Origin: Argopecten irradians
Taxonomy: Eukaryota > Mollusca > Bivalvia > Pectinida > Pectinidae
Direction of reading: 5' to 3'
DNA length: 64,000 nt
Assembly (NCBI RefSeq): GCF_041381155.1
Contig: NC_091134.1
Coordinates: forward strand, 9,332,755-9,396,754
The notes under the pieces are model-generated. The model did not search any database. It was given only the letters and a program-made list of their open reading frames with translations, and had not been told where the DNA came from. Both the position numbers and the translations under genes were made by a program. Shown here one piece after another: positions 9,076-63,461 of the stretch; within the stretch, counting starts at the first letter, position 1, and each line of letters starts with the position of its first letter.

Positions 9076-9752
9076 TTAAGGATACAAAATTGCATTGTCT
9101 GAAAGCATATTGCACATAAAATGTAGGTGAATGTGGGCCCAGATACCTATTCAACTTCTAACAACGCACATGTCAAATTCATGAATATGTACAACTTTAT
9201 CACGTTCTCACATTTTTGTGTTTTATAATTTGTTTTTTTAATTACAAATTTATTTCGTTATCATGGAAATAAGAAAAGTTGTACTTAGACATCCGGTCCT
9301 CTTCTCAACACTGGCAAGCACTTCCTGTACCTATAATTATTAATTAACATATCATAAATGAACGATTTAAAAAAGATACCGAGTCATAAGAAAGATTTAT
9401 TTACATATCTGCAATCGGTAATAGGTATTATGTTTGAAAAATAATGAATATTTACAGTTTGCACTGACATGGACTCAATAACCAAGTTTTCTAGTATTAT
9501 CTTTATAAGTGTATAATGATAGAACAACTCGTGCGGCGATTCCATTGTTACGGGAATAGTAACGTGGGGTCGTGACCGCACTTTTGGTGGGAAAATATAA
9601 ATGACTCGATTCCAATCAGCTGTTCAATCGAATTCGTTGACCCTGGCGGGAGATTAAAATATATTGGTATTTGAATAAAAATCATGCAACTGTCGGGAGA
9701 ATAAATAATATTCATTTACGTGAAAAACTGAAAATATAAGGAATAGATTTTG

Positions 9753-9880
9753 ATTTTGTTGATGTTATGAGGGTAAAATGATAATTGAGCCCGTGTAAAT
9801 TTTATGTAACCCGGCTTCGCCGGGGTTTCGTAAACTACACGTGCTCCATTATCTTTATACCCTCATTACCTCAACAAAAT
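9753..9880. repeat. foldback (long hairpin) element
   Basis: About 55-bp arms (from ATTTTGTTGATG at 9753 and its complement ending at 9880) close on a short GC-rich loop around CCCGGCTTCGCCGGGG. Weaker complementarity extends beyond both arms. This would form a strong cruciform or transcript hairpin. No coding content. Confidence 0.7.
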
Positions 9881-10358
9881 TAAAAAAAAATCCTTAAATA
9901 TCTACCAATTTCGAAAAAATCGCAATCCAAATAATAATTATAGCAAAAGAATACAATATTGGTATATTGAAAGAAGCGTAGATTCACGCCGCTACTCTGA
10001 AAGAAGTGACAGTTTTTCAAAAGCCAAAGACAAATTCGGGTTCAATGATGTTTTCTTTGAAATCAATCTTGTTGGTGGATATATTGAACGTGCTGGGTTA
10101 AGATACATTTGTTTATGATACTTAAGATTTATTAAATGCTGTCGGGGGATATTTTAAACCCTAATTCTTAAACATTTTTAAATACGTTTTGTGGGGTCTA
10201 GATATATCAAATACATTAATTCCCATGTAAAATGCATGTAACCTACTGTTATAGGAACGGTACCTAACCAATCTGTGACCACTTTTTATGAGTGAAAGTG
10301 TACATTTAAAGGAAGAGGAAAGAGTCAGTTTACTTGTATTTGGTTAGAAAATACATAC

Positions 10359-11160
10359 CCAACAGAAGATTCCGACCACTGCTGCACAAGTATTTCGAAC
10401 TCTTTCAGCAGTTACGCCAGCAATGAGATCTTGTGCTTTCTTTGCGTCCTCTGCCTGTATAGATTCGACATCTAACGACGCCATCTTTTTTATCAATGAG
10501 TTGTCAGATACTTGTGCTAGAGCTACTTTTGCTGTCCTGAAATCCTACAACAAATCACAGAATGGCACAGACTTTATATATAAGACTGATTGCGAAATGA
10601 GTGCATTACACTAAATGCAAACTGTTTTACTGGTAATATGCCTGTAAAAATGATAAGCGATTAGCAGTGCACATAGATTTACAAGAATTACTTTATTTTT
10701 CTCTCTTTCCTAACAAAAATTCGTACCTACATAAACCACAAAAAAACCCCGGATGGATTTTACTTATAAATACTCACATCTCCGTTATGTCGTCTATATT
10801 ATTATAGATACATTTAATATAGGAGAAGGTGAATGGATTCGTTTGGAATAAAAATTTTGGCAACCTAAAACGTTTTAAAATAGAATGTCTCCGGGATAAG
10901 TTCAATATTTATTATATTTATTCATGGTATAAGAACCGTAAAGCTTATTACAATATACTACTACATAAGTGCATATATACACATAGGAGAAGTGATATAA
11001 AAATATGATAATATTATGTAAGGCATTATATAAATGCATTTTCCTTTGGATTTGATTCCCCTAGAAGTATCATAGCAGCTGCTAAGGTATCTTTGACAGC
11101 CTGAGGTGGAGCAGCTCAACGTTTTATTATAACGAGATCCTGTTGTTTTACTTCGGCCAT
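10359..11160 (-). pseudogene. decayed dynein-stalk/MTBD-like small gene, copy 1
   Basis: Exon 2 is intact at 10544-10359: 62 codons starting DFRTAKVALAQVSDNSLIKK and ending GIFCW, bounded by TTGTAG and GTATGT exactly as in the plus-strand sisters. Exon 1 is recognisable upstream at 11160-11038 (ATG at 11160). It keeps the family pattern ...AAPPQAVKDTLAAAMILLG..., but its codon 15 is TGA where the sisters have leucine. The position where they have a GT donor reads AAGGAAAAT. No third exon was found downstream. The exon 2 sequence is closest to copy 2, which starts about 0.9 kb away on the opposite strand, so the two form a divergent pair. It is most likely a dead copy, unless another first exon is used. 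Confidence 0.65.
10725..10854 (-). repeat. direct repeat, promoter-like (copy b)
   Basis: About 130 bp, nearly identical to 11302-11427. Read on the minus strand it carries GTGAGTATTTATAAG, a TATA-like core. Copy b lies between exon 1 and exon 2 of the minus-strand pseudogene. Confidence 0.7.
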
Positions 11161-11301
11161 TTTGAATTTGGTGCTTTAAACCTAACCGATATTCGACCTG
11201 CTTTGCAATATAAATACGTTCAATGTTATAGTGGTGTGAACTATAATTTATATACATATACTCGACGAGGAATTCACATTGTACACCGATGAAGCCTTGG
11301 C

Positions 11302-11427
11302 ACCTACATAAACCAAAAAAAACCCTGGGTGGATTTTACTTATAAATACTCACAACTACGTGATGTCATCTATATTATTATAGATACATTAATATAGGAG
11401 AAGGCGAATGGATTCGTTTGGAATAAA
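11302..11427 (-). promoter_or_regulatory. direct repeat, likely promoter of minus-strand copy 1 (copy a)
   Basis: This second copy of the repeat lies about 140 bp upstream of the minus-strand ATG at 11160, where a promoter would be expected. On the minus strand it carries the TATA-like GTGAGTATTTATAAG and a CGTAGT-type motif. Loosely similar bases (GAGTAAAATCCAACGACG and GTGAGTATAT) occur upstream of the plus-strand copy at 25773. The promoter role is inferred from position and sharing. Confidence 0.35.
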
Positions 11428-12073
11428 AAAAACACCCCAGGTCATTTAAAGGGAAATCCCAATTTTTATCTAGAGCTATATTACTCATCAACAATCTAAG
11501 CGAAGTCTGGGCCGAGATGTTGACGCTAATGTGAAATCTATATTGGCAAATCGAACTGTTATAACAAGCCTTATGAATGAATATATAGGATTTAAAAGCA
11601 AAAAATGCAGATAAGATACAAACGCTTAACTAACACATAGATAAATATCCGGATGTATCATGTATTCATCATATAAATGCAGTGAAAATGTCTCGTAAAT
11701 TCATGAAATATTTCAGTTTTAATTCCACTGATTTATAACACAAACTTGCGCTCTATCATGAGAGGATATTTCAACTTTTGATGTGAAATTACATAATATA
11801 AATAATCCTATGTAATCTAATAAATTACAAATATTGTACAAGCAAAAATTTACGTTTTGCGTTTGAGTGTTCATTCTAAATGTTACGTTCCCAAAATGAG
11901 TGCCTACTTAAAAGAGCTATGAGTGCCTGCCAGCGGATAATTCTTTCGTTGTTTATACGTAAGACCTACTAATACGAAAACAGAACGGAAATCGCATACC
12001 CATTGTACTAATAAATCACAAAGGTATTTTTATTAACATGAGGTCAGAATAAAGGTAATAGTATGTTCTTAAC

Positions 12074-12939
12074 ATGGCTAAGGTAGCAGTCACACCACAT
12101 GAAATTGGCGAACTAAAATCTCTGCTATGTCCTCCGAAGATAATCAAGGACATATTGGCAGCTGTCATGATATTGATAGGAGAACCTAACCCACGGGTAC
12201 GTATTATTTATTGTACAATACATAAAATAGGTATTGGATATTATTTAAACCTATTATGAATATATATTACACTTTCTACTTTCTGCGGCATTTAGTTTTA
12301 TATTTTCTTGCTTACTGTAATTTCCATAGCGTTTTATAGAGATTTGTGATAATACGTTATTTTGTATCTGTAATTGGCGCTCTTTTGCGACGACTTTTAA
12401 AAACAATTTCTTCAAATTTTGATGCAGGACTATGTAACTGCGCAAAAGGTGCTAAACCTAAAGTGCGATAACTCCCTGATACAAAGAATTTCGACGCTAG
12501 ATGTCGCTTCCATCGCTCAGGAGGAGGTTGTAAAAGCACGCGGGCTCGTGGATGGATTGACAATTGACATTGTTCGGAATAATAATCTTGCTGTATGTAA
12601 CCTATTTTGTTGGGTATGTATTATTTTAACTAAATAGAAAATGTAAACGCGAAACACGGAAAACGCGAAATAACGTATGGAAGGGATCACAAAAAATGAA
12701 AATGAAAGATTAAATAATGATTAGTCGAACTATTTTGAAAAGAAAGATCAGTGTTTCTTTAGGGAATCATAAAAAAAAAATTCTTGTAATGAAAATGTAG
12801 AAGATGACATTATCAACTCAATACTTTCTTGACTATATAACAGTCCATTTTGAATAAATTGCCTTCATATAGCTAGTTAAACCAAACTCCATGCCTCCTT
12901 GATTTGTTTCAGGTTCAGGAAGTATTGCCAATGGTGTAG
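12074..12939 (+). CDS. standalone dynein-stalk/MTBD-like protein, copy 2 (short-tailed)
   Basis: Three exons: 12074-12196 (41 codons), 12428-12613 (62 codons) and 12913-12939 (8 codons plus stop), joined by GT-AG introns in phase 0. The protein is 111 residues. Residues 10-36 carry EIGELKSL..PPKIIKDILAAVMILIG, matching helix H1 of the dynein heavy chain microtubule-binding domain (pattern ITEIKS..NPP..V..V...V..LLG). Exon 2 (DYVTAQKVLNLKCDNSLIQR ... LFCW) matches the following helices. No signal peptide or membrane segment. Exon 3 stops after VQEVLPMV, where copies 3-5 continue with EKRTGDL. The bases beyond the TAG still read as a decayed tail, so a GAG-to-TAG change probably shortened the protein. 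AATAAA lies at 13001. Microtubule binding is inferred from the fold only. Confidence 0.75.
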
Positions 12940-14469
12940 ATGGGGACGGACAGTTTAACTATCTCTACATAGAATGTGTGCTATAGCATATTAGACATGA
13001 AATAAAGATCAGCTCGTCAAAATTATTTCATATTGAATACGAAGATATGTTATGTCATTTACGTATAGAAGCAAATATGATATTAATGCAACAACCATTC
13101 TGTGTTTGTATGACCTGAGTATATATTGACTATAATATAAGTGGCGCATGCAAAACGTGGCAGTATTTTGAATGGTATAACATAATTAAATTGTAACCCT
13201 TTTTTGTTTTTGAATCACCTAGACTACCTTGAATGGACATGATTTTACAAACAAGTTGTTCTGTTTTCATGTATTTTGTTTATCCAGTCTTTTTATATTT
13301 CACCTTTTCATTTAAAATGCTCTACTGCATCATTAATCTTCATATATATCTTCATTTATGAGATGATTATCTGCAAAGCTCTGACATCTATATAGACCAT
13401 AGATGCCATAGCAAGATAGTTTAATTCCTATATTCACATTATCAATTCACTTTACGGTGTTTGCATTAACATTGTTTAAGCTAGATCAGGAAAACTCTTT
13501 ATCAACTACGATATAATCCACAACATGGAACAGCCGTTGTGACGGTGATCAGTCGGCGTCACCACGTCAACATTAGTGACGTCATAATGGTAATGTTTTG
13601 GGTGTCAGTTATGCCGTCATATACTTCACTTTGCCTTGGTTAGTTTATATAGTCGAAGTGACAAGAAAATGTAAATATAATTGTTTAATATTATACATTA
13701 TTTTTCAGTTACTTGAACGTGATTATGCTCCTTTAATGTTTGATTTTGTTTGACCAATTACAATAAACAAATTGATTGACTGTTTGATACCACGTGTCCA
13801 TTGTCATTCCTGGATTTTGTATAATGATGCTCTATTTCATAATGTACTAAGAAAGGAACTGAAATGTGTTATTTTGTACAACTCTAGCTGTATGCAACTA
13901 CTTAAATATGTGTTGTAACTAAAAATAAATTATAACCGGTGAAACAAAACCGGAGTTGTTACGTTTAAACGAATATATTTAAAAGTATTTAGCCAAGGGA
14001 AAATACCTATAATCTGGACATCCCTCTTCTGTCAACAAAAACAAAGAATGAGTTTCCAATCTCTATGGGTATATTTTTATGCTAATATGAAATATATGAT
14101 TCAGAACTAACAGTATATTATAATGGAAACAACGTAGTTAGCATATTGAAGTCATCTGATTCACATCGACTTCACTGATGACGTGCTTGGCACGTGTTCA
14201 GACCAAGTAACTGCTATATTAAGGACTAGCTAGGCAACGACAATAACAACACAATGGACACCAAATCGGTCAGTCTATTTATCGACATTAAAGGGATTTC
14301 CCAGTCCCTGTATGGAATCTTGTACGTAGTATGTGTATATAGTTATGAAAAACTTTTCTAGTTCGTGTATGCAACCATGTAGTAGGTGTGTATACTTATG
14401 AAGAGATTTTAACACAGAGTAGTTCAGAATCGATTTAGAACTTACTGATTTTACACGACGTCTAACATT
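12940..14469. other. intergenic spacer between copies 2 and 3
   Basis: Holds the poly-A signal of copy 2 at 13001 and AT-rich DNA with no exon. The upstream control region of copy 3 lies at about 14205-14330. Confidence 0.5.
14205..14330 (+). promoter_or_regulatory. conserved upstream block of copy 3
   Basis: GCTATATTAAGGACT at 14213-14227 is repeated exactly upstream of copy 5 (25554-25568). Looser similarity follows in both (CAATAACAA, GACACCA and a ...GGGATTTCC / GGGGCTTTCC motif). It lies 140-260 bp before the ATG at 14470. It is either a shared promoter element or simply sequence copied along with the gene. Confidence 0.4.
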
Positions 14470-15919
14470 ATGGTTACGAAAGGGGACATTACTGAGATTA
14501 AGTCATTATCTAACCCTCCTCAATTGGTCAAGAATATCCTTGTGGCTACGATGGCACTTCTGGGCGTTCCAAACGTAGAGGTAAGCATACAGTATTTCAG
14601 AATTGTGCTTGTGATGAATAGATTTACGGAATGTTAGCTTATGCAAAACGGGTGTCCAAGCTATACTGCAATATTCTATCATAGCCATGAAGTTTGATTG
14701 TTATGTAGGTGAGGCTAATTATGATTGACCGATTAACAACTCGATTAAAATAAAGATCTTAACTTTTCACTACGTTATGAAGATCTAACAGTGGCTGATA
14801 AGGGGTCATGTTCAGATGACCTTTCACCAGTTCAGATGACCTTTCACCTAGCCAATGGAAACATATGTTTGATCACATATTTATCAAGATAGTATTGTCA
14901 GCGCATATCTGATTACTTTAGCGGTAAAAAAATACTTCATTTACTTTCACGAATTTAACGATTTGGCCATAAAATGGGGGTTCTTCACGGATAAAAGTTT
15001 GGTGATCTCTTCAATATCCCGCGAAAAGAGTATACGTTATAAATAAGCCAGCATGTATCAATTATCAATTAGAACACCTACTATTTCAAACATAAATGTA
15101 TTGATAATGTGTCATTAATGAATTTTGCTTCACAATGATATTTTTTTTCTCTATACAGGATTACCGATACGTGAAAAGAGCGCTGGGCGATTACACACTT
15201 CTACAGAATATGTCAAATATAGACATTGATTCTGTATCTCAAGAGACAGCTTTAAAAGCACGTCAAATTGTAGATGGTATTACAGAGGCGGAAATCTGTA
15301 AAGTCAGTAAAGCGACAGTGTCATTTCTTAAATGGGTATGTATCTATAAAGAAAATCGAAATAAATTTACTTAACATTAAACGAAAATTAATTTGGTGTA
15401 CGGAGGGCCGTTGTTGAGGGGATTACCAGTGTCGAGCCAGTATTATTATTTTTCAATTTCCGCTGAGAACTTGATAGCAGTATATTGCATAGGGTTGGGC
15501 TTATTATGGAAACAATTTGATTAAAAGTGGACAAGCAAATTCTAAAAGAATTAAGTGGTCCAAATAATGAAGAAATTCTTAAAGATGACATTAAATCACA
15601 GATTCGGAATCTGTACAGTCATACCTAATTTTAGTTATGTTTAATTTATATCAAATCTTTATTTTCCCTTGCTTATGAAACACCCACTTAAATGCAAAGC
15701 GAAATCCACCGTTAACAATTTAACTGTTGTTAGTAAAGGCTTTTTATAAATTCCCAATATTTAACAGTTTATGCGTTAATTTTAATCATCATGTTTGTTG
15801 TTAGGAATGTTCTTAAATGTACCTAAATGTTTTGTCTGTAGGTGAACCATGTAATAGCAGAAGTTGAGAAGAGAACAGGAGATCTGAGTGTAGCAACAAA
15901 ACAAGAACCCACAGCTTGA
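14470..15919 (+). CDS. standalone dynein-stalk/MTBD-like protein, copy 3
   Basis: Exons 14470-14580 (37 codons), 15159-15335 (59 codons) and 15842-15919 (25 codons plus TGA), phase-0 introns, 121 residues. Exon 1 gives MVTKGDITEIKSLSNPPQLV..., with ITEIKSL and NPP, the signature of dynein MTBD helix H1. Exon 2 (DYRYVKRALGDYTLLQNMSN ... SKATVSFLKW) follows the dynein pattern W..KK.LGD..FL..L.NFD.D.I, then KVSKA...L.KWV. The tail, VNHVIAEVEKRTGDLSVATK followed by QEPTA, is shared with copies 4 and 5. The protein lacks the AAA ring and the full stalk, so it cannot be a motor. A soluble microtubule-lattice binder or a dominant partner of the KY-fusion protein is possible but unproven. This is the best-preserved match to dynein in the cluster. 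Confidence 0.82.
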
Positions 15920-18311
15920 CATGCAGAATAAATACCCAATGTTCAAGTCCTTTCCTTACATGCTGTGCAATAGATATAGTATGAATCGGCGTCATATGAC
16001 ATACTGAATTCAAAAACTCCATTACAATCTATTATGTTATTACTATAATTACTCTATTGTTATAAACAATTTTAAAGCAGTCTTGTCATACGGTTCTGTA
16101 TAAATTTACTGTTTTTTGTTATTATTAAATGATTTATAGTGAATTGTCTTAATGCTGCTGAGCAATCATCAACCTGGTATTTGTATAGTTGTTCTCCTAC
16201 TAACGACACATCGACATGTGCCACCCAAAACACGTTCAGTGTGATGTTCACTTATAATACCTTTAAAACCTGTAATGAGCGTCATATCTCATACTTTGAG
16301 ACTCCGATTTCGACCTATAAACTTCTCCAAAGTTTTCATCAAACTGTATGTAAATAAGTTCATACACAGTCAAGAGTATGAGAACTATTCATGGTATTCA
16401 AGTGCAACTCTATCAACGTACAAACATCGTACAATTACAGAATGTCGATGATTTTCTTCAATACGATTTGAAATATAAAATTATCAAATAATCATTTCAA
16501 ATAGACTTATCTTATTATATGTGTGTTTGTTTGATTTATTATAATAAAATGTTTAATTATTTTTGATGTCTTGTTTTCATTTTTGTCTTAGAATGTGGTG
16601 CACTATGTCCCATTATTTTTATTTGTTGAGATTCGTGATTTGTACATGTATATCTAGACATTAGATTGAATGAACGTTTGGATAAATCATGTATACCTCA
16701 AGTCTCAAAAGCATTAGCTTTCGAAAGATCCAGAAGGACTACAACTAAATGAATATTATCATCAAAGAGAATCGTCTCCAGTCTTCAACCGTACTCTGAA
16801 GCATCACAGGAACTTATTCAAGATGTTTTAAAAGTGATCGCTAAGACATATATATTAGATAATTTTGATAAATTAGATGTGACTTGAACCTTCTGAAGAT
16901 CATTTTTATATGAGGCAAGTCAGATATGGCTAAGACTGGCGATGCATATTCAAACTATATATAATGTAATAATCCGTTTTTCAGTGACACGTTCAAAAGA
17001 AAAAAATACAAGTATACTTTATATGTCCAAAATATGAGCGATATTCGTATTTAATTTTTTGAGAAGTCGTTTATACCATCAATTTACTACTGATGGCCTC
17101 ACTCGCTCAGACCAAACATTTGTACAATTTTGAATCATCACCTCATTAGGATGCTACATGAAAAAACCATGAACAATATGTATTCATAACTTTTAAACAT
17201 GTATAGTCGTTTATAGCAATACGGTCAATGTGACCTATTTTAGCTCCACCCCTCAGAGGCCCCGATGGTCAGTTCAACCACTTGTACAATTTGGAATCCT
17301 TATTTCATAAAAATGATAACAGCCAACCACTGTAGTATTGTTGATCACCATATCTACTTAATCATAATTCTTGTAAGGTATCAGAGTTTAATATGATACA
17401 TTTCCCTTTAGTGGTACATGCTGGTCATTGACATCTCTCACAAACATACCATGCGCCCAGAACATATCGTTTACATCATCTATGTCATCAAATATATGAG
17501 TCACAATGGAAATGCACTCTTGAGAGATCCTCGTTTGGTTCTACTTCAAAATATTTTTTGTAGCTTTTTAAAGGTAACTATTTTTTGTAGCTGTCGTGTG
17601 GCTGTCGTCACAGTGGAAGTCTAAAGAATTCCGAATAGTTCTTTTATACAACAGTTGGTTCTTAAATGATATTGTCAAAGTTACCAAAGGTGGGTGTCAT
17701 TGGATAACTCTTATCTTGTCTCACTAGGTTAAAAGTCATCTCACCTACACAGATGAGATGATCAAAATAAAGAAATATTTTGTCAAGATATTAACTCAAA
17801 TAGATAAGATGGTTACTTATAGAAGATTGTGTATATTAGTCCTTTGCGACATAGAAAGCCCATAACAATTTGACCCTTATTCTATCACACTCAAGGTCAT
17901 CACGCGCCTTCTACGTGGTAGATATGCTGTCACAAAGGATAAGAAAAAAAAACACTATCATGTAATGAACGGTCTGTCCGCATAAACCCCAACTTTAATG
18001 AGATTGCTGTTGCAATTTTGTTCAACTTTTTTTTAAAACTAAAACAAAATATCTAAGATATGGTTCGGAATGATATGTTCCAGAAATTTCAATAGGTGGG
18101 TATGCTGAGATAAACTCTCAGCGGAATAACTGTAGGCCCTTTTAAGAGAGAAATCCAGAGTAAAAACCAAAGACGTAGCTCATATACTGCTGTCCTGATT
18201 TATACATAAATGACGTTATTGGTCAGCGTAAAAGTTAACAGGTTAACAAGTTAACGTTAACAACATCACAGTAGAAATCTGAAGTCCGTATGATACATCG
18301 CATGAATAAGT
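15920..18311. other. intergenic spacer between copies 3 and 4
   Basis: An AATAAA lies at 15927-15932, directly after the stop of copy 3. Around 17085-17340 two diverged direct copies of a dispersed repeat occur, sharing TTGTACAATTT and GAATC...CTCAT. No coding exon was found. Confidence 0.45.
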
Positions 18312-21300
18312 ATGGAGATAAAGAAAGCTGATGTTACGGAGATAAAATCTCTATCTTCTCCTCCGATTCTGGTCATAAAGGTCCTCAAAGCTACAGTAAC
18401 ACTTCTTGGGGTAAAACATGTAGAGGTAAGTATTTTTTTTATAATGTTAAGAAATGTAAAAAAAAAATATTAAGAAATTTAATGAAATATTTCACATGGT
18501 AGCTTTTGGGTCTTAGTAAGTCAGATGAAATCCTCGATACTCCAGGGGTTACTATTATTATCGTTATACCCACCGTGGACTATATATATATAAATATATG
18601 TCAAACTGAAAGCAGTTCAAGAGAAAATAAAACTGACCAATCGCAGACCTCCGGAGACTTCCTTGGATAATAACAGAGAGCGAGGTATCACTTGAAAGCC
18701 ATACATTGTATCGTTATACAATTTTATTATCACATTACTTGTCTCATCTGTCAGAGCATGTCGTAAGTCTAAGATGAGATATAACGAAAGTGATAGTAAC
18801 CTCTAGAATATCACAAATGGTATTCTTTCTACAATTCTTATAATTTGTCAAAGTGTAAAGTGGTCGTAATGTTTGAATAACATAATAACATAATAGTTTC
18901 AGTTACAGCTGCTCACATTAAAAACGGACTGACATAAAGCAATATAGTGTATTGGTGTATTCTGAAATAAATATAGAAACATGAGTAACAGAAATGTATT
19001 ATCGATGAATAACTTTATGTAATTACTGAAAGTATAACAGTTTTGTATTGTAAGTAGCAATTATAAATGACTGTTGTCTAATGATATCATGTTTAGGTAT
19101 GTTGGCTATGAAATTATGTTTAATTTCTGTTTCTATTGTCATTGTAGGAATTCCGCTATGTTAAAAGGATAGTGAGCAGTTCAACATTTCTGCAGGACTT
19201 GTCAAAACTAGACATAGATTCTATTCCTCGTGACACCGCTTCCAGGGCTCAGTGCTTAATAGACGGTATAACTAAAGAGGAAATACGTAACGTCAATCGA
19301 GCGGCAGCGTCATTTCTTCAGTGGGTATGTATATATAATAAGTTATTAATATACCTCTACTTTATTTACACTATATAAAAGATACTTTGTTAAATTTACT
19401 AGCTCCCTGCTTTTTCCAAAAACCTCTCTCAGCTGTGTGTTAGTCATAGAACTAGCACACCTCTGGAAGCTAGCACACCCTTGTACTCGGGTATTTCCGT
19501 TTAACCAATCAGATTTGAGGTGGGCGGGACTTGTTTCCGATCACGCCATCAGTTGCTAGGTGACGTAACAATTGGACTGAGCTAGTTTCCGATCACGCCA
19601 TCTCCGTTGACGTACTCAGACGACGTTAGTATCGATCGGAAACTGTTACCGAACACGTCGCCATGTTTATCTTGTAAGTGAGAGGCTTGTGAAAAAATGT
19701 AATGGGGTCAGAGGACAATACCTTTTATACATGTATATAGGCTACCTGTAAGTGGTTAACGTCTCGGAATTTCAACAATATTTATATACAAATTCAAGTA
19801 TTTTGCCTAGTGGTATAAATGTTGAAATATCGAGAAATCATAGCGGAATCAAATTTTAACCTGCGGTTTGAATAGAAGCAAAACAAAACGGACATAGAAT
19901 CACAGTTATCATCTCAGAATAATTTGTATGTTTGAAGATAAGATTACGTAGATCGATTACAATGTAAAAGTAGGCCTATCTCAATCTCCAATGGCCATTA
20001 TTGTACGCGACAGGAATAGAGAGAACGTTAGCGTATAAAAGAAATATAGTTTTAGTCTTATCATAGCTTTTGTAGGTATCGGTATATTAAAACAGTTAAA
20101 GTATGGGATTGAGTGATATATCAAGTTTCCGGTTTCCCTCGAACTTGCCTATTTCCCTCGGCTCCGCCTCGGGAAATAGACAAGTCTCGGGAAACCAGAA
20201 ACTTGCTATATCCCTCAACCCCATACTTTAACTGTATAATTAGAAATTCAGTTTTTATGTTATCTGTATCAATGAGGTGCGTTGTGGGCGAGTGATATAT
20301 GTATATATAATGCAACAACTTTGGAAAAAAAAGATAATGTAATGATGTTGTCCATTCTCCACTGCTTAAGTGTAATATCCTGTAAGTATGCCAGTTATAT
20401 TTGAATAATATTTGGTATATTTGTACAAAGAAGCTGAAAACTAAATGCAAATAAAGAATTTGAATTTGAGTAATTAGGGGGCTCTTATACATTACCACCA
20501 GTCGGAAACGACATGGGCGACGTCGCAGAGGTCGGATGCTTTTCTCTAGGTACTCAACTTTTTCAAAATACGTCAAGTCTTTAAAATACCTGTCTCTTCA
20601 TGTAGTTAAGCATTAACATATATCAATATGTTAGAACAGAAGAATAAAGAAAAGGGTGTCATTGTCAGATGGGTTGATATCGAGTCTGTACGCAATGATT
20701 TTTTGTAATTGTTAAAATATCATATTGATATCACCTCAGCTTGAATTTTTATTAATTACACAAGCTATATACCCTACAGCTATCCGTGTTCGGGAAGACG
20801 ATTTGTACATCATTTTTATATAGGCTTAATATATTAATATATTTAGTATTTATTTAGGATTTAGAAATTGTTCATGGTTGTATTAGGGGCATTGTACTAA
20901 GAATGTTATAAACCGTGTATGCGGGGGATGGGAGCATTTAGGAATTATTTGTAAAAGGATACTAACATACATATTACATCAGTATATATTCCTTTATATT
21001 TAATCCCGTACTCGTATACAACATTTATTATGTAGATCCGTCCCGTACTCGTATACAACATTTATTATGTAGATCCGTCCCGTACTCGTATACAACATTT
21101 ATTATGTAGATCCGTGAATTTCCTTGGTTTTTAGACCGGAAAATAAAGGAAAGATATGCCTCAAAGAGTTGCGGGTAAATTATTTGTTCCATTTGAGGTT
21201 CTTTTCAGTGATTTTGTTGATGGGTTGGCTCTTTAATTTTTCACGACATACATAATTATATTTGAAACTATGTAGCAATCGAGATTCCGTTAATATTTTT

Positions 21301-21424
21301 TCTTATGATGAATATTTTTGTACACATAGCATTGTCTCTGTTTTAGGTAAAACATATATTAGCTCGGGCTGAGAAGAGAACAGGAGATCTGAGTGTAGCG
21401 ACAAAACCAGAACCCACAGCATGA
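18312..21424 (+). CDS. standalone dynein-stalk/MTBD-like protein, copy 4
   Basis: Exons 18312-18425 (38 codons), 19148-19324 (59 codons) and 21347-21424 (25 codons plus TGA), phase-0 introns, 122 residues. Exon 1 starts MEIKKADVTEIKSLSSPPIL, with the ITEIKSL..PP dynein H1 signature. Exon 2 reads EFRYVKRIVSSSTFLQDLSK ... NRAAASFLQW. The tail is VKHILARAEKRTGDLSVATK followed by PEPTA. An upstream ATG at 18302 is out of frame and closes quickly, so the ATG at 18312 was chosen by alignment to the sisters. Intron 2 is 2.0 kb, far longer than in the sisters, and holds a CpG-richer promoter-like block (about 19440-19680), a 144-bp hairpin and a 37-bp minisatellite. Confidence 0.8.
19440..19680. other. 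GC- and CpG-richer promoter-like island in intron 2 of copy 4
   Basis: Stands out from its AT-rich surroundings. It has a CCAAT-type AACCAATCAG at about 19503, a GGGCGGG box at about 19521, TGACGT-type motifs, and two exact copies of GTTTCCGATCACGCCATC (19533-19550 and 19585-19602), with GATCGGAAAC inverted nearby. No exon follows that I can support. It may be a promoter, an inserted element, or both. Confidence 0.35.
20092..20235. repeat. foldback (long hairpin) element
   Basis: ACAGTTAAAGTATGGG at 20092 and its complement ending at 20235 begin two arms of about 67 bp that meet at a GGCTCCGCC loop. The arms contain CAAGTTTCCGGTTTCC and its near-complement. The loop resembles that of the foldback at 9753 (GGCTTCGCC), but the arm sequences differ. 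Confidence 0.75.
21004..21114. repeat. minisatellite, 3 copies of 37 bp
   Basis: The unit beginning TCCCGTACTCGTATACAACA and ending TAGATCCG is repeated three times without visible change, inside intron 2 of copy 4. Confidence 0.9.
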
Positions 21425-23656
21425 CAGAAAAACAACAACATCAAACTACACAGTGTTCAAGAGATTGACCGATATGTTTTGCAATATATATTACGTGTTT
21501 TCTAAATAAATTACAAGATTATCCTAACAGACTTATATTTTGTGATATATACCAAATATTTAAAGAAAAATCAATGTAATGGAATCAGTTATGTTTTGTT
21601 ATAAAACAACTATTAATCATATACTATCATACAGGTGTGCATCATTTTACCAATTTTATTTTAATATAGTTTATCATGACTTTGACGTAAAGCCAATCAG
21701 CAATCAACATTAAAATATACGTTTATCTATGTATTCTCATCGTTAATATTAAATCAATCACACTTATTAAACAACAAAAGGATTCATATAACACATGGAA
21801 AACGGTGTTTTTCGACTAGATACTGATGTCGACCTAGAAACTTTCCCAAAGTATTTATCTATTACATACCTGTAAACCCTATTTGTTCAGAACGTTTCTT
21901 CAACTTCAAATATATTAATAGACAAAGAAGAGATATAGATTATTTGGAATGGTTGTAAGTCAATAGAATTTTTACCTAATATTTTATACTGTTTCGTTTA
22001 AGTCGATGTACTAGTATTCAAACAAGCATGTTCATTTATTTCACTTATGTTAGCAGATATTTTATAATGTTAATGTCTTGTGCTCCTTTTTCGTTTCAAA
22101 CTAGACGTTATTGATGCATCGTTTCAGAATTGAATTCAGTAATGTTTAACATTTTACAAAATATTTTATTTCTACATGCTTCTTATCTGGCGATCATGAT
22201 AAAACAAAATACATAAGTAAACATTTATTGATTACAATTTTTGTTACCTGCAGCATAGAAACACATAGCTGTAATCTTATCAAATTGTGATAATGCCTAG
22301 CTACAGCACTTTGGAAAGTAAACTTTAAAAATCAAAATGTGTTAAAGATGTTGTGACTTAGCGCACATTGATATTTTTTCAAGGTGTGTAATATGGCGCA
22401 TACAATGATTTGAGTCATTTTGTTGAACTGTTTTATCAAGCATATTAAATGCACATTAGCTCATGATAAGGATGGCATTAACCTTTAATATTTTTATTCG
22501 GAAAACTTTGTCATATTCAGTGTTGAAACAAACAAAAGTTTAGCTTTAAAAACTGATGTACATAATAGGACTGAGACCACAATTACATACTTCCGGTTTC
22601 AGTACCCACGAATGAAGTCTCTTCAGAAATGTATGTATTTTATGAAAACATGCAGCATGCCCCTGTGAACTTGGTATTTGCCAACAAATGTAATGTAGAT
22701 GTGTAGTGTACATGTCATTTTAACTGTTATAGTGTAAAATATTGAATTTTCTTATGTTTTATTGCTCCAGGATCCTGTGTAAAAAGTCTTGTTTTGACCC
22801 CAATCCATGACCCGGATGTATATAATTGGCACATGGTGACACTTGATGACAGATATCTTGAGAAAATGCCGGTCATGCTAGGTTGAAACTTTCAGAATTT
22901 GTTCCTCGGATATTGACCTTGACCAGGTTAGATGGAAACTTGTTAACGAAATTTTGGGAATTTATTATGATTTTTAACGTTAACATATAGCAGAGTTATT
23001 TGTGGTGTCGGTCCAAATGCATTTTATCTCTAAAGAACTATTTAAGTCAGTGTCACATCAAACAATTTATTTTTAAAAACAAAAAATATGCCAATATTCT
23101 AATGTGCTCCAGTGCAAAAACGTTGAGTTCTTTAGGGTGGTGTCCTATGACCATAGTTTTTCTAAAATGCACGCACATAAAAAATGCTATTGCCATTGAA
23201 AAAACCCCTCTAAATCAAATGTAAAAAATTGGGACATTTGAATCGGGTAATATGGTGAAAATTCGGGGTTCGGGTAGGATATTGGTTATTATTTGAATCT
23301 CTCAAGGAAATATATTGCCATTTTGTTAGGTGTCAGTGGAGGAAACAAATACTTAACCCATGCCGTTAAGATATTTTAAATATCATATGGAATTTATTTG
23401 AACGGAGACCGATGAAAAAGTTCAACAATTAATATTTACAAATGCCACTGTTTCTGTATCGATAAACTAAGTTAGGGCCGATCTGTTTATATTAAGTGCA
23501 GAACGTGACCCGATTCACTGCGTATGAATACAATTGGTAAACATTGGCGAACTTCTTTACATATTTCACAAAATCTCGTATCAATGTTTACAAATAACAC
23601 ATGTACGAAACAATCGGAGACATAAAGAAACAGATTTAAATTTTTAATTTGTTATT

Positions 23657-24597
23657 TACGAAAGCCGATTGGGCTCATTTTGGTAGAAGAAAATCAACAA
23701 AAAATCGCGTAATTACACGAAACTTTCGCATTATTACGCGAATCTTGTGGCGTTATAACGCGAAATTTTTGGCGTTATTAAGCGAGACTTTTAAACAATT
23801 AATATTTTGTTTTATGATGTTATACCACCCGAATTTACATAATCGGCAGTCTTTATCTTATATTTTACCGGGGCAGTATGACACCTATATGTACATTAAG
23901 CGAATCAAAGGCCTCTATTTCTCTGAAAAATGTCAATAGGATTATTTGAGGTGCTTGTTAGTAAGAAAAAGGATGGCCATACAACACTACGCTAATGAAC
24001 TCAATGTTTTGAATAGTGGAATTGAAAAGTCCAATATCGATGCGACTATGACGTTAAAACACTAATATCAAACTTATGTTTCTGAAATGATCCGAGTCCA
24101 TATGCTATACACCGATCTCCGCGTGACCATGAGATTAGTGGAAATTTTTGTCTCATACATTTGTTTTTCCAACAATAAAATGTCATAAGTTGTAACGCGA
24201 ACGTTTAAATCAAATTCATTGTACATCAATGGATTTTTTAGGAAGTATAGAAAAACTCATTAGAGTTATTTTAGCAACAGTATAGATACAAGCAAAGAGA
24301 AAATTTGCTTCTTATAAATTGTGTGTAAAATGGTAATCATAATCTATTCTAAAATGAACATGAAAATTATGTGAATATGGTAGCTTAACCCCTGAAACCA
24401 ACCCTTAACCAACCCTTAACCAACTTCATGCTTATAGATGATATGTGTATAAGTTCTTGCTCGTCCATATTAGATGTGGCTTCCGGAATCAAATGTGGCT
24501 TCCGAGGGCTCAAACAATGTAATAATATATAGCATTTTTCGCGTAATAACGCAATAGTTTTTTTCTTCTTTCAAAATTAGCCCAGTCCGCTTTCGTA
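23657..24597. mobile_element. 941-bp inverted-repeat element, TA target (mariner/Tc1-like size class)
   Basis: The left end TACGAAAGCCGATTGGGCT and the right end (inward TACGAAAGCGGACTGGGCT) match over about 27 bp with few mismatches. TA at each extremity fits a TA target duplication. Subterminal ACGCGAA / CGTTATTACGCG motifs repeat at both ends. No transposase frame was recognised, so this is a non-autonomous copy. Confidence 0.6.
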
Positions 24598-25479
24598 TTG
24601 ACTTGAATACATTAACTGATATAAAGGAACTATTTTTTCATGTCATGGAGAAAACGGCAGGATTAAGCGGCAGTCAACGGCGCGCTTTTTATGAGTGGCA
24701 TTTGTGCATGGATACACATGACGGCAGTATATTAACACACGGTAAATGATTGTATCTGTCGTTTTGATATATAAGGATTAGCCTCTTACTTTGCTTAGTT
24801 TATGAGATGATAAACCCAATGTAGCAATCGGTAAATTGTACGTAAACGCTTCTTCGAGCTCAGCATTCACAAAACTAACCCAGGACGTAGCCGGATCACA
24901 AAATCAACAACGAATCTGATTGTAACAATAAAACTACAGGAACAAAGCCGATCACATAATAAGTTTCTTATTTTCAACATGGGACAATGATGATCGTAAA
25001 ACCTACACATAGTCATCACTAACTTGTGCCACTGTAACTCTGGTATAATAAGGATTAAGGGTTGCTGATTGAAAACAACGACAATAATATGGAAAGGAAT
25101 TTCTCTCTATGATTCACGAGAGAAAAATATAAAAAGAAACAGCAAAAAATGAAATAATCTATCTGTGAAATTCCTTCTACTATGTAAATATGGTCGATGA
25201 CAAAATCTGCCTAATTTCTAGAAATTGATAACGAGCAAAATGGCAAAAAAATCGATTATAAAGAAATATCAAACTATGAAGTTAAGATCAGTTAATTCCG
25301 TCAACACATTGAGTTCTTTTAAATTCTTTATCTTCTAGTCTACTAACAACTCATTCCACACCTGGTTTAAATACAATCTCGACCTTTCTGTCATATTGTT
25401 AATATCACATATACTCATTATTCCTCCTTCAATAATTAGTTATGTCTTGAATTTCAATGGAATAAATTGGGGTATTTAA

Positions 25480-25640
25480 AAACTGAAATCCCGAGTAAAA
25501 TCCAACGACGTAGTGAGTATATTATTGTACCTGTGACGTTTTAGAAACACTACGCTATATTAAGGACTTGGTGTGATGATATAGCCAGGTAACTTCAATA
25601 ACAAAGGCTATATTCCAATAGGCCAACCTATTTGTTGACA
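25480..25640 (+). promoter_or_regulatory. upstream block of copy 5 shared with other family members
   Basis: GAAATCCCGAGTAAAATCCA and ACGACGTAG resemble the block upstream of copy 4 (18150-18180). GCTATATTAAGGACT at 25554-25568 is identical to that upstream of copy 3. It seems to combine the two upstream motifs of its neighbours. Confidence 0.4.
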
Positions 25641-25772
25641 CCAGGGGCTTTCCAAATATATACAGGTGTGTGTGTGTATATATACATGTATATATATTAT
25701 ATATAAAGATATAAAGATTAAAAATAGCAAAAGAGTGTTATATTTGAAGTTTGCTGGCCTACCCCTATAATA

Positions 25773-27485
25773 ATGGCGGAGATAAAGAAAGCCGACGTTG
25801 ATGAGATGAAAGTTTTCGCTCGTCCACCAGAGTTAGTGATAAAGGTTCTTACAGCTACCATGACACTGCTCGGATTGGAGTACACAGAGGTAGGCAAAAC
25901 CACTAATCATTTAGAAGTGGAATATAGTTTTGATGGGGTTGAAAACAAATAACTTATTAACCAAGCTCTATACCGTGCTTGTACAATAGAAACAATATTA
26001 TTTCTAGCCTGCAATCATTATTTTTCTTACTCCGATGAAATTTAAAAAATAGTGCCACCAATGCTTAAATAACCGAAAATCTTCGGCTGAGAACTTAGTC
26101 AAGCTAATAATTCAGAACACCTATTATAAGTTTGTGCTACGATGCGGGATACAGTTGTCAAACATCTGGCGAAACGTCCTTCCCATCATAATTATAAATT
26201 GTTATCCTAAGAAACATTTTTTGCTTATTTTGGTGGCAGTTCACAATATAACCAAATGACAACAAACTGAGTATAGTCGGTGTCAATGAAGTGCATTGCA
26301 CTCTCACTGTTATAACCTTGGCGATTATAGATAACATAGAACATGGTTTGTCACTATAAAACGGATTAACAGTTATTAACAAAGAATGTTGTCTGACTAA
26401 ACGGTAAATAATTGTTATTACATAATGAGCTACATAACGTTTTCTGTTGTAGCGGGATTACCGATATATCCAAAGGATGCTGGGCAGCTCAACATTTCTA
26501 CAAGACGTTGCAAAGTTAGATGTTGGTTCTATTTCTTTAGAGACAGCTTTAAAGGCACATTCGCGTATAGAGGGTATCACGGAGGAAAATTTGTGTAGAG
26601 TCAGTACAGCGGCTGTGTCATTTCTACGATGGGTATGTATATTAAATTGAAGAAAAAAAAAAGAATCAAAACAAACAAACAAATTCAAACAGACAGAATT
26701 TAAGTCTATATAAGTTTAAAAACTAAATATATGTCCAAGAATAATAATTAATATTTTCAAGAATTCTTTGCGGCCTCTAGATTTCTAGATTCTTGAAAAT
26801 GTATTTCGTGAAAACAACGTTTGAATTAAAACTGAAAGTTATTTTTCAAGTTCGTTGGTTTTTTTTCAATATTCTTTGAAAAATGTTCCATACTGGGTAG
26901 GTACCGACATGTTAAATTTTAGTTACGAAAACATAATGATATTTTACGTTTATCAAAAAAGGTGACTATAGAGAATGTTATTACTTGGTGTTTATCGATG
27001 ATGTTACATAAACTGAGCCTTGAATCAACAACCTGGCACATCTTAATGTTAGTCTTCGTTATTTTACTTCAAGTAAACTTTCATTAGTTTAGCTAACACA
27101 ATTCAAAATGTATGATTTTCTAAGATTAGCCTATTAAACAGAAATACTTTACCAAATTGTACCTGATTTGATTTGACAATGAGTAGAAAAAATGTTTTAC
27201 CTCGTCTTGCATTATCTGGTTTAATATATGCCATAATTCTTTAATAATTTTGATTATTATTCTGTGATACGTATAATATTGGTTATTTTTGATATAATCA
27301 ATCATAGTATTTGTAACTTTGTAAGAAATAAGTAATCCAAATTTGTTTTAATTTTCACTTCTCGTGTTTTGATCTTATCATCTGACTCCATGATTTGTCT
27401 GTTTTAGGTGAAAGATGTATTAGCTGCGGTTGAGAAGAGAACAGGAGATCTGAGTGTAGCGACAAAAGAGGAACCCACAGCATAA
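25773..27485 (+). CDS. standalone dynein-stalk/MTBD-like protein, copy 5
   Basis: Exons 25773-25889 (39 codons), 26453-26632 (60 codons) and 27408-27485 (25 codons plus TAA), phase-0 introns, 124 residues. Exon 1: MAEIKKADVDEMKVFARPPE, with the PP turn kept but the ITEIKS core changed to VDEMKVF. Exon 2 begins RDYRYIQRMLGSSTFLQDVA and ends SFLRW. The acceptor AG sits three bases upstream compared with the sisters, adding one arginine. The tail is VKDVLAAVEKRTGDLSVATK followed by EEPTA. Last of the plus-strand copies, it faces the C-terminal end of the KY-fusion gene 1.9 kb away. Function as for the sisters: predicted helical MTBD-like bundle, no motor parts. Confidence 0.8.
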
Positions 27486-29409
27486 ACTATAGAGTAAAAT
27501 ATACAGGGACTTATGCTGGGCAATATATAAACAGCATAACGTGTTCAAATATTAAAGTTAATTATTTTGATAATTAAAAAAAAAAAGAAAAGAAAAGAAC
27601 ATGACATAATATATTTACGGTAAGAATTCAATTATATTTATTCCGTTGTCTAATAAACATATACACATAGGTAGCTCTGTCCTATACTTTTATACGGTTG
27701 TCTTTAAATAATATTAAAGAAGTAAACCATTAGTCTAAAAACTCACCACAGCTTCGAAATGTTTTATATTCGACTAATTATTTCCATGTTAACGTATATA
27801 ACATCAAAGGTGTCATCACTAGCAAAAACACAACCTATTGATTTTTCATCATTTATCGTTTGAATGTGGTGGGTTTTGGTGAAAAACGCTGTAAAACCCA
27901 TTTAAATTTCTTGTCAAGCTATTCCTGTTCTTAAACAATGAATCATAGCAACACACACGCCCTGCGTATGTACGTTATAAACATGGAAATAATTAGTATA
28001 ATAACTGTTATTTTCAATTTTTCAAACATTTCATGATTTGTTAATGTCACTTTTTTCTCACATATCGTGGACTTAGAAAATGGTTGTTTAAATCAGCTGT
28101 TTTGTATTTGCGATTTTGGTATATCAGTTCTTATACAATCCAAACAATTCATCATTCATTTTTCGGTATTTTAATCGTAGAAAAGTAGCAAAATTCAGGG
28201 AAGAGGACATGTTGTCACAATGCTGTTTATATTGGTCAGCTATCTCTTGTTCTTGTTTGAGGTCAATTTATAATTCTGGTTTTGATATTACAACCAAGAC
28301 AAATGACGTAAGACATCAATACATATGTTCATTTATTTTTATTGTATTTTGCATTGATCATTACATTAGCTTACAAAGCACACATTTTACATATTTCTAT
28401 TTCATGCAAACGATCAAAGCATTTCATCTAAATGTGCAACCCAAAAAACATTTTGCTGGCTTCAAGCATGTTAAATTCTGGATTTTTTTTTATTGCCCTA
28501 AGCGGAGCATTATTGGTTATGAGATCATACAATGTACATATTGTATTTAATCAATCACGTAAAAACATTTGCAGGCAAGAGAATAATAGCAAAAGAGCAA
28601 ACCAATGTAGCATTTTCAATACAAGTGAAAACTTCCTAGAAAAATGTAAATTATTGAATTAAAACATCCAAAAGCGGAGTAGTAAAAAGAGGCAGTAGCT
28701 CTTTGTTTATAGTATCGTTTGAATGATATAGCTTACCTTATACATGCAGTGCGTATATTTGACCCAATAGTTACGTAAATGTTGTATAAAAATGTATATT
28801 ATTTTAAATGTATGAGCCCTGAAATAAACTATATTCATGTATGGTAAATGTTACATAGCCTATGGTGCGACTGATATTAGAGTGTGAAGGAATATTCGAA
28901 TTTTGGTTGGCATATATCAACTCATAATAGTACCTTTGGCACGATTGAATCCAATTCATTTGTTCCTGATTATGGAGATGTCATATATATATTTGTTGAT
29001 GTCATTAGGATAGTAAATATTACGGATACAAATCAATACAAATAAACAAAATACGAGTACCCGCCTTTTAGCAGAAAAAAATACGATATATGTTTGCATT
29101 AATAGCCGTAGCTACACCGGCATATGAATCTTGCACAAATGTTATAACACACCTATACATATCACGTATATCAGACTTATAAACATATCCCTGATTTTGG
29201 AAGATAATAATACTTGTTGTCATAAATGGGACGTTACTCTTCAGAATATATACTATACGATTTCTTTCAATATGTTCCAAAAGGGACATAACTCTGGTTG
29301 CGTTAAGACACTATACATGATCCTTCGGTTCCATATATGGTTTTAAGTCAAGGGACAAAACTCTGGTTGCCTTCAGACTATTGACTATTTCTCATTCGAT
29401 AAAATAACT
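27486..29409. other. convergent intergenic region
   Basis: Lies between the stop of copy 5 and the stop of the minus-strand KY-fusion gene. AATAAA occurs at about 27651. The open frames here (for example 28116-28550) lack coding character and splice context. Confidence 0.5.
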
Positions 29410-32400
29410 TCAATCGACCGGAACCATGGTCCGTTCCCGTTTCCGTCTGTTAGACGTTCTCGGTCTGACAGTGGCGATTACTTCGGCATTTCTTCTCTCC
29501 AATTCTTCTGTCAACCCCTTTACCTATTAATATTAAATACAATAGTATTTATCATGTACAGAGTATCTTATAAAAGGGATAACTCATTACGTTTGAAATA
29601 TTTATTTGAAAAAACAAACATAATGCATAAGATTAATAAGGGATAATACCAAGAATGCATATAAAACAAGGCAAGTCAAATGAAAATTAATTTAAAACAT
29701 TAGTACACGTGAAAAGATGTCTTACCCAAACATAGAAGGTCGCGCCACCAGCACTGACCATTCGGACCTGGTCCAATGAAAAGTCTCGTATCAAATCACG
29801 TGCTCCCAGAGCGACATCTAGCGGTATATTATCCACCACCAGTTCCTGTATCCTGCGCTTGATGGCGTCTTTTCCCATCTTTCCCAATGCGATCTGTATA
29901 TTTTTCCAATCCTGCAAAGAATGTATTTATATAGAGACATTTGTACATTGGTTGATAATTAATGGATTGGGATAGTTCGGAACTTACATCGATGTCTAAA
30001 TGTTTTTTTTAATATCGAAATAGTGATATAACAATTTGTATTTTTCATTTCATCTTAAACAAACATATGGTATAGTTTTAAACCTACCTCTGTCTCTTCC
30101 TCCCAGTGTCCCAGTAAAAGTAGCGTGGCCATCATTACCCTGTGAACTGCCGGAGGCGGACTATTGTAACAGCGGATTTCTCCTATAGTCTTCTGGTCAA
30201 GTGTAAGCACAGCGTGTAGGAGTCTGAAATAAATAAAGAATGATACTGTATCGGGAAAGTGTCGTTAATTAGAAAAAATATTGGAGAGGCTAAAATATGT
30301 AGTTTAAGACAAAGAGTCGTCAAACAGAAATGGTCGTCAGAGCATGTTTCACGGTGTTTGATTAATCAATATATGTTTAGGAAAAGATGAAAAGTTGAAA
30401 TTAATCAAGCATATACATAACGAAGTTGTTAAATATGGAATAGTGGGAATAAGTGGTCGAAGAAATACAGTAAAACCCAGATAAGTCCACGTTTGACGGA
30501 ACCAGGAAAATCATTCGTCTTATCCGATGGTTCTAGTTTCTATGAATGGACGCATCGATATGATTTGAATTACTTAGATGTCTATTGGATACATATTTTA
30601 GAGCATTGTACTTGTACGGGAAAGCAATATTTAACATTTTAGAGTTTTAAAGAAAATAAAACAATGTTAACACTTGCAAATGTGGATGTAGCATGTATAA
30701 AATGATAGTGCTATAAAATGTAATTAAAAATATGCACGATGATATAAATCTTACATCTTTAACACCTTCCGGATTTTCGATCGAACTGAATAATTGGGTC
30801 AAGTTGTAAGTGAACTATCCATATCTAAACAATTTTTTGTCGCATTCCATTAAAACCAAACAGAAATATTTACTTGTTTATATTTCGGATTCTCTCCAGC
30901 ATGCCTTTAGCGTTCATGACTTCCCGCTCCAGTCTGGTTTCCAGTTGTTTCTCCCGTACATTCTTCAGGGCCTCGCGTATCACATTCATGTCCTTCTCAT
31001 TGGTCGCATCAATGATTTCTGAAAACAAAAACGTGTATTTTCTATAATTTGTATAGACGTCTTACAGAAGAACCACTACAAAACTAAATTATATTCGACA
31101 TTGTTTGATTTTGGAAAAAGACCTTAAACAGAAACCAAAAACAAAACTTGAAAATAGAGACGAATCTCAAAACATATCACCTCAATTATATTTCTTATGA
31201 ATATCATTGAAGTCGTTATTAAAGTTCGCATAACACCATCTTTATAATCAACGCTCCTTTTAGCTTCATCACGGCAACTGCGACTGTGATGATACTCATA
31301 AACTCGTCCAATCGACTTATAAACATTTACTGTTACTTTCATTTCACCCTATGATTCAGGGATATATTGCCCTGAAGACGATCAGAACTGCCATTCATCT
31401 GAACAAACAAATAATGGTACACAGAAAAAAACCTTACCCCGTCGGCATTTAAAGAATTCCAGTTCCTTCTCTGCCACCTCAATATCATTCTTCATGGTGG
31501 GCAGACCTAGCGACTTCATTTCTTCTATGGCTTGTTCCAACTCTTTCTCATTTTCCTCGTATATTGCGTTTCTGATCCGCTCACGGAGTTGATTTGGTAG
31601 ATCTATCAGGACAACATTAAGCCATGTTAATAGAATATTACGAATTAAAACTTATTTGCACGCGTCATATTTCTGTTTGTGATGGTTGATTGTTATTTAG
31701 GGCTTTGAAAGGCTTTGAAATGACCTAATTTTGTTCTTAATTTGTATGGCAAGTGCTGTTAACAAGCCAAAGAAATGCTTACTAAAACCTTATTTTGCTT
31801 TCATTGTCCTTTTGCATGCAAATATAAAATTCCCTTACTTGCCATTAGGTTTAAAAGTTGATATAATGTTAAAAAAGTATAACATTATACTGAGTGGTAT
31901 TTAAAAAAATGGCTTTTTCGTACTGGCATTGGTAAACCGAAAGCTTTTCTGGTAACAAATATCAAACAGTGTAAAACTATTGTCTATCACATTTAATGAT
32001 AATTCAAATAATTGTTTTGGTTTGATAATGGCGAGTGATGCCACTCAACCTATCACTGATAAAATGTGTTTACTTTTGGAATACCGGATGAATATTCCAA
32101 ACAATCACGTGTATACAACATTTATGCGAGTATATTCAAATTCTTAATGCATATATTCAGTTTAAATAACAAATTTCCAGTGGACTGAAATGATTAATTG
32201 ACTAAATAAAGAAAACTTACGTGAACCTAGTGAATTGTCTCCCTTGATTTCTGCCTTATCTCCGCCTGAGGCGGCCGTCGTGCCGCCTGCCTGTGTCTGA
32301 GATAGCGGAGCCAATTGGATGCGTTTGCTTCTGTTTTTCTTGTACTTGACCACATAGTCGTACAGACTTTGAAATCCTTTTCCTGTGTTTCCCATCAGTC

Positions 32401-63378: not shown

Positions 63379-63461
63379 AATGTTTATTGCAAAAAATATA
63401 TTATTGATGCAATAGCTGGAGAGTGCAACCTCTAACTAAATATTAAATGTTTATTTTCTAG

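Follow-up and report, generated by a model that had tools for sequence, protein, structure and literature searches.

Predicted mini-genes for a dynein-type microtubule-binding domain beside a KY/hillarin-like gene in Argopecten irradians

In dynein heavy chains, the sliding of the two stalk halves, CC1 and CC2, against each other sets the microtubule-binding domain (MTBD) at the tip to high or low affinity. On tubulin, the MTBD occupies the intradimer interface; in the high-affinity state H1 and CC1 shift jointly while the remaining domain is little altered (PMC6629372). Separation of this domain from its motor is familiar from the engineered SRS-MTBD fusions (PDB 3ERR, 3J1T and 6RZB), which carry the stalk in a chosen register (PMC6629372). 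Here we describe genes of the bivalve Argopecten irradians, located in a 64-kb stretch of contig NC_091134.1 (positions 9,332,755 to 9,396,754, hereafter the window), in which the MTBD is likewise removed from the motor, but which are natural and lack CC1. We refer to them as mini-genes (g10, g12, g14, g18 and g25). They adjoin a large gene that ends in the same domain and that resembles the KY (kyphoscoliosis peptidase)/hillarin proteins, with which it shares Transglut_core and Ig-like_KY; unlike them, it adds a C-terminal linker and a dynein MTBD, and its catalytic Cys, His and Asp appear to be replaced.

Our preferred reading, which we hold to be somewhat more probable than not, is that the mini-genes encode small non-motor proteins made of the MTBD only, a derived form of the domain common to them and to the C-terminus of the KY/hillarin-like protein, likely copied from the last three exons of the latter, and that these proteins bind microtubules. 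Natural tips that lack the CC1 stalk half and are retained under purifying selection would reveal what the tip does alone. Stand-alone tips may be built-in regulators of dynein or cilia, and the animal may make free microtubule clamps from a motor part, while the fusion of a tip to a KY/hillarin-like protein connects two cytoskeletal families. In the open literature, judged from titles and the beginnings of abstracts (subscription journals and preprints fall mostly outside this scope), we found neither stand-alone dynein MTBD genes nor a KY-MTBD fusion, nor any paper connecting the two families; of the publications naming PF12777, two deal with dynein domains in general. Unnamed database proteins of this kind may exist in annotated animal proteomes.

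A cluster of genes with the dynein microtubule-binding domain

When all six-frame open reading frames (ORFs) of at least 12 amino acids in the window were scanned with profiles, exon 1 was matched at six places, with E 1e-8 to 1.3e-22 against 1.8 for the next-best ORF, and exon 2 likewise at six, with E 1.4e-29 to 2e-31 against 0.37. The profiles had been built from the very copies found, the exception being exon 1 of g10, which was outside the exon-1 profile and is thus the sole independent find (E 1e-8). Exon 3 of all six loci was placed by motif search, and the start of that of g18 was set in a separate step. The six loci comprise five three-exon mini-genes, four intact and one decayed, and the three 3'-most exons of the large minus-strand gene next to them (Table 1). 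One mini-gene (g10) lies on the minus strand and the other four on the plus strand; the intact ones have predicted proteins of 111-124 residues. Exon search and splice sites bore out the three-exon structures of the original prediction made for this DNA, and its single decayed copy and the adjacent large gene ending in the same domain (exons 7-9, 30223-29410) were also recovered. The extent that it gave, 10359-31602, was too narrow, since the mini-genes occupy 9250-27485 and the large gene 29410-35967 (its 5' end was not located).

Intron 1 lies directly before D/E-[FYW] and intron 2 directly after a conserved W, both in phase 0, at all six loci. This regularity had been claimed without exception, and two qualifications are needed. 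In g25 the acceptor of intron 1 is 3 nucleotides (nt) further upstream (E-R-DY in place of E-DY), and in g10 the first donor is lost (GA for GT), the end of exon 1 being therefore placed by homology. On account of this lost donor and of an in-frame TGA in exon 1, we have taken g10 as a pseudogene; the frames of its exons 2 and 3 are still open and their AG acceptors retained. The introns are between 176 and 2022 nt long, and the third exon of g12 has only 27 nt.

Exon 1 of g10 is bracketed by two near-identical blocks (10740-10854 and 11316-11429; 92% over 75 nt, 98% over 41 nt), which are perhaps linked to the decay of this copy. The second intron of g18 contains an imperfect inverted repeat (20085-20242; arms of 54 nt, 87% complementary), which may be a mobile-element remnant, and a 37-nt unit in three tandem copies (21004-21115).

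The identity of the domain was established by comparison with an outside family. A profile of the four intact mini-proteins and the domain of the large gene matched PDB sequences with a best E of 1.3e-14. A total of 90 sequences reached E 10 or better, and the best 60 of them were dynein heavy chains, most by label; about 10 with other labels (such as AAA+ ATPase, DHC_N2, MKIAA0325 or, for a 4583-residue chain, radial spoke head protein 9 homolog) were assigned from their length, their position or what is known of them. This match to dyneins excludes a chance resemblance. The g14 protein alone reached E 6.4e-6, with dynein in 36 of 39 rows (the others were a 35-residue flagellar peptide and two viral capsid chains, E 0.16-1), and the C-terminus of the large gene alone E 5.4e-5, with dynein in 19 of 20 rows and an alignment that extends back into CC1. 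A profile-profile comparison (hhalign) of the four mini-proteins with five dyneins gave E 9.6e-21. The homology covers H1-H6 up to the W and supports the identity that had been predicted, a dynein MTBD.

The Pfam family MT (PF12777), proposed beforehand as a check on the spliced proteins, matched at all six loci, and no other family reached E<=1 with the four intact mini-proteins (MT at E 0.0016-0.0095) or with g10 (MT at E 0.00019), which align to model positions 101-207. For the large gene (E 0.0062) the match joins model positions 57-168 to residues 726-848, i.e., exons 6, 7 and part of 8, and stops short of the conserved W. Some results tell against the assignment: all six scores (15.4-21.1 bits) are under the curated cut-off of 24 bits, and the sole structural model, an AlphaFold prediction of g14 exon 2 alone (59 amino acids, five helices), is of low confidence (pLDDT 63.9) and had 7 Foldseek matches, none significant (best E 2.6). 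These include three identified dyneins (8j07_k8, which is DNAH10, 2rr7 and 6rzb); two further chains, belonging to a doublet and an outer-arm complex, are as long as a dynein. When the proteins of g14, g18 and g25 and the C-terminus of the large gene were reversed (g10 and g12 were not), none of the four matched Pfam MT, though two produced weak matches of another kind (E 0.025-0.098), which shows that single matches near E 0.01-0.1 can arise by chance. The weight is therefore on the PDB profile search, those with g14 and with the large-gene C-terminus, and the profile-profile comparison. An NCBIfam scan of g14 and g18 gave one unrelated match only (E 0.069), and an Rfam scan of the window at gathering scores gave none.

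Compared with a dynein heavy chain, in which the central part of PF12777 is the equivalent region and axonemal chains (e.g., DNAH2, DNAH6 and DNAH10) are the closest, the mini-proteins keep the H1-PP-H2 signature and the W. Each would run from H1 through the PP turn and H2-H6 to the conserved W, with a short tail behind it. The mini-proteins begin at H1 and end 8-26 residues past the W, with no AAA ring, no CC1 and no flap insertion, and they show a two-residue gap before H6 relative to the five dyneins used. No AAA family was matched at E<=1 in the four mini-proteins, in g10 or in a 917-residue partial model of the large gene, which differs in having an upstream linker with a weak CC1 match.

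The substitution pattern shows that the predicted frames are under purifying selection. For exons 1-2 of g14, g18 and g25, nonsynonymous divergence (dN) is 0.30-0.36, synonymous divergence (dS) 0.86-1.18 and dN/dS 0.26-0.42, with 28-33, 18-21 and 43-50 differences at codon positions 1, 2 and 3, respectively. The pair g10-g12 has a dN of 0.45 and a dS, near saturation, of 2.27. Exon 3 of g14, g18 and g25 is more similar (DNA identity 85-87%, dS 0.11-0.34 over 25 codons) than exons 1-2 (60-71%), and its flanks also align. This excess would reflect either recent gene conversion or an extra constraint at the nucleotide level; between g18 and g25, dN in this exon (0.14) is not below dS (0.11). Since g18 and g25 share an upstream block (69% over 112 columns), at least this pair was duplicated along with some of the DNA upstream.

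Tubulin contacts and possible function

A way to approach the function of the mini-proteins is to look at the positions by which dynein touches tubulin. Sites of contact with tubulin or its tails are, in mouse numbering, K3298, K3299, K3364 and R3382 (PMC6429364 and PMC4987762), and K3367 is a further tubulin contact (PMC6429364). At the first four, g25 has K/K/K/R, g14 T/K/K/K, g18 K/K/R/N, g10 K/Q/K/N, g12 T/P/K/N and the large gene D/Q/G/M, i.e., 4, 3, 3, 2, 1 and 0 basic residues. By these residues, g25 and g14 look the likeliest microtubule binders and the domain of the large gene the least likely.

We infer the expression, microtubule binding and cellular role of the mini-proteins from these predicted sequences. 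Like dynein, they would bind in the intradimer groove between alpha- and beta-tubulin. Because they start at H1 without CC1, their affinity would not be settable by the register of a stalk, and they could decorate microtubules in an unregulated way or compete with motors, perhaps in the axoneme; in the large protein, the MTBD would serve as a C-terminal anchor. We have moderate confidence in such unregulated decoration or competition. The more specific proposal is that a KY-type protein first acquired the tip and then gave rise to a gene family of free microtubule clamps without a stalk register, which would be natural motor-free competitors of dynein; it is a tentative one that we consider somewhat less probable than not.

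The main rival to binding is that the domain has lost it and serves as a protein-protein module, for example one that joins the mini-proteins to the large KY protein or to proteins of the axoneme. Several points speak for such a loss or, more generally, against strong binding. The contact residues of the large gene and of g12 are mostly replaced, and given its D, Q, G and M the domain of the former may be non-binding; K3367 is kept in none of the six copies and R3382 has become N in g10, g12 and g18. The net charge up to the W is only -2 to +1, with the exception of g18 (+3). MTBDs can bind weakly, as DNAH7 on its own 12-heptad stalk decorated microtubules poorly (PMC6629372), and the salt bridges proposed for K3298 were not seen in the simulations of PMC4987762 itself. 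On the other hand, g14 and g25 retain K or R at 3299, 3364 and 3382, and dyneins themselves vary at the contact sites, DNAH10 having N at 3364 and A at 3382. We regard a general loss of binding as unlikely, roughly one chance among four.

Origin of the mini-genes

Common descent of the mini-genes and of the terminal domain of the large gene is favoured by a number of shared features. The mini-proteins align with the large gene in hhalign at E 1.7e-14 over 109 columns, reaching the tail; both introns are common to them; and the two-residue gap before H6 occurs in both and in none of the five dyneins. Along these lines, a test of 15-residue tails anchored at the W gave p of about 0.001 against the tail of the large gene for three of four mini tails and 0.014 for g10, compared with 0.52-0.85 when the tails of DNAH2 and DYNC1H1 served as controls. 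This test was added after a gapped one and then repeated with the dynein controls; both omit g12, the tail of which has 8 residues. The simplest route would be a copying of the last three exons of the large gene followed by tandem duplication into the present cluster. The birth by copying put forward in the original prediction agrees with the profile and tail similarities, finds no backing in the identities and weak backing in the tree, and the direction of copying, from the large gene to the mini-genes, is unproven.

Other measurements of this relationship weigh against it. The gapped tail test was weaker (p 0.071, 0.027, 0.051 and 0.002; joint 0.0097), and for g25 it aligned best out of W register. 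The mini-proteins are 23-31% identical to the large gene versus 21-34% to four axonemal dyneins (18-34% to all five). The tree, which is unrooted and took in five dyneins only, contains no strong branch (mini-genes alone 76/79; mini-genes with the large gene 84/83), and approximately unbiased (AU) tests also allow mini-genes with DNAH10 (p 0.207), g10 and g12 with the large gene (0.185) and g14, g18 and g25 with the large gene (0.128). The grouping of the large gene with DNAH2, DNAH6 and a Chlamydomonas chain had a p of 0.065.

These figures bear on a second rival, in which the mini-genes were copied straight from a dynein heavy-chain gene, before or independently of the KY fusion, and their introns are ancestral dynein introns. 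The mini-proteins resemble dyneins no less than they resemble the large gene, in identity and, although a five-dynein profile and a single large-gene sequence are not strictly comparable, in hhalign (9.6e-21 versus 1.7e-14). Three extra residues present in the large gene, g10 and g12 are absent from g14, g18 and g25, as they are from the five dyneins, and the arrangement with DNAH10 is not rejected. Opposed to this are the gap before H6, the W-anchored tail similarity that the two dynein tails lack, the position of the cluster next to the large gene and the best tree, which unites the two. Taken together, we would give a direct dynein origin about a quarter of the probability and retain a common descent with the KY/hillarin-like C-terminus. 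A search for relatives in prokaryotic and viral contigs confirmed none and is uninformative on animals.

Gene models, the large gene and the rest of the window

In every mini copy the ATG falls on almost the same codon and a separate stop is present, and a poly(A)-like hexamer (AATAAA or ATTAAA) is found at all five stops, downstream of the stop but overlapping it in g10; the support from the hexamers is weak because they are common in AT-rich DNA. In g12 and g14 no AG lies between the in-frame stop and the ATG, so that they can join no upstream coding exon. It is improbable, at about one chance in ten, that the exons of these predicted stand-alone genes instead belong to longer genes or form alternative 3' ends of transcripts not seen here. 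In g10, g18 and g25 the one to three AGs between upstream stop and ATG make an upstream coding exon formally possible.

The KY/hillarin-like nature of the large gene is an addition of the present analysis. Its 917-residue partial model matched Transglut_core (PF01841, E 1.4e-5) and, in three stretches, Ig-like_KY (PF23265, E 2.4e-47), both above the curated cut-offs, and since no AAA family matched, the gene is not a dynein. By these matches it is a transglutaminase-like protein of the KY/hillarin type that continues into a linker and ends in an MTBD-like domain; the name hillarin, and any kinship with KY beyond the Pfam label, are presumptions of ours. The phases of exons 4 and 5 agree at their junction, and no Met occurs in the exon 5 ORF until mid-exon, which favours one gene with a predicted joint at this point. 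In a weak alignment to a transglutaminase-like PDB chain (E 0.72), the Cys, His and Asp of the large gene seem replaced at what we take to be the triad positions, and its transglutaminase-like core may be a pseudoenzyme. The linker (30874-31602) resembles helical hairpins and matched no Pfam family above cut-off (best E 0.056).

Table 1. Coordinates (window positions) and strands of the exons and upstream blocks.
Feature	Position	Strand	Remarks
g10 pseudogene exon 3	9250..9330	-	VQEVLASVEKRTGCLSTTFLISMITK, then stop; motif search
g10 pseudogene exon 2	10359..10544	-	open frame; AG acceptor and GT donor
g10 pseudogene exon 1	11044..11160	-	in-frame TGA; GA at donor position
g12 exon 1	12074..12196	+	ATG; in-frame stop 4 codons upstream, no AG in gap
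g12 exon 2	12428..12613	+	profile match
g12 exon 3	12913..12939	+	VQEVLPMV, then stop; AATAAA ~61 nt past stop
g14 exon 1	14470..14580	+	ATG; in-frame stop 7 codons upstream, no AG in gap
g14 exon 2	15159..15335	+	profile match
g14 exon 3	15842..15919	+	AATAAA ~7 nt past stop
g18 upstream block	18088..18197	+	69% similar to g25 upstream block
g18 exon 1	18312..18425	+	ATG
g18 exon 2	19148..19324	+	profile match
g18 exon 3	21347..21424	+	AATAAA ~80 nt past stop
g25 upstream block	25428..25533	+	similar to g18 upstream block
g25 exon 1	25773..25889	+	ATG
g25 exon 2	26453..26632	+	acceptor 3 nt upstream of common position, adds R
g25 exon 3	27408..27485	+	ATTAAA ~65 nt past stop
Large gene exon 9	29410..29523	-	tail after conserved W, stop codon
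Large gene exon 8	29726..29911	-	second part of MTBD-like domain
Large gene exon 7	30088..30223	-	first part of MTBD-like domain (H1, PP, H2)
Large gene exon 6	30874..31018	-	helical linker; dynein match reaches back into this exon
Large gene exon 5	31438..31602	-	linker, mostly charged, probably helical
Large gene exon 4	32221..33242	-	residues ~329-669; part of best KY Ig-like stretch (262-395)
Large gene exon 3	33696..34253	-	residues ~143-328; second part of transglutaminase-like core and start of best KY Ig-like stretch
Large gene exon 2	35028..35260	-	residues ~66-142; first part of transglutaminase-like core
Large gene first identified exon	35773..35967	-	true 5' end not located

Elsewhere in the window, two simple-repeat regions (49709-50111 and 59458-60132) stay open over long distances in several frames of either strand and are probably not genes. 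A partial protein-kinase gene (63440-64000; Pkinase, E 6.4e-17) lies at the window end.

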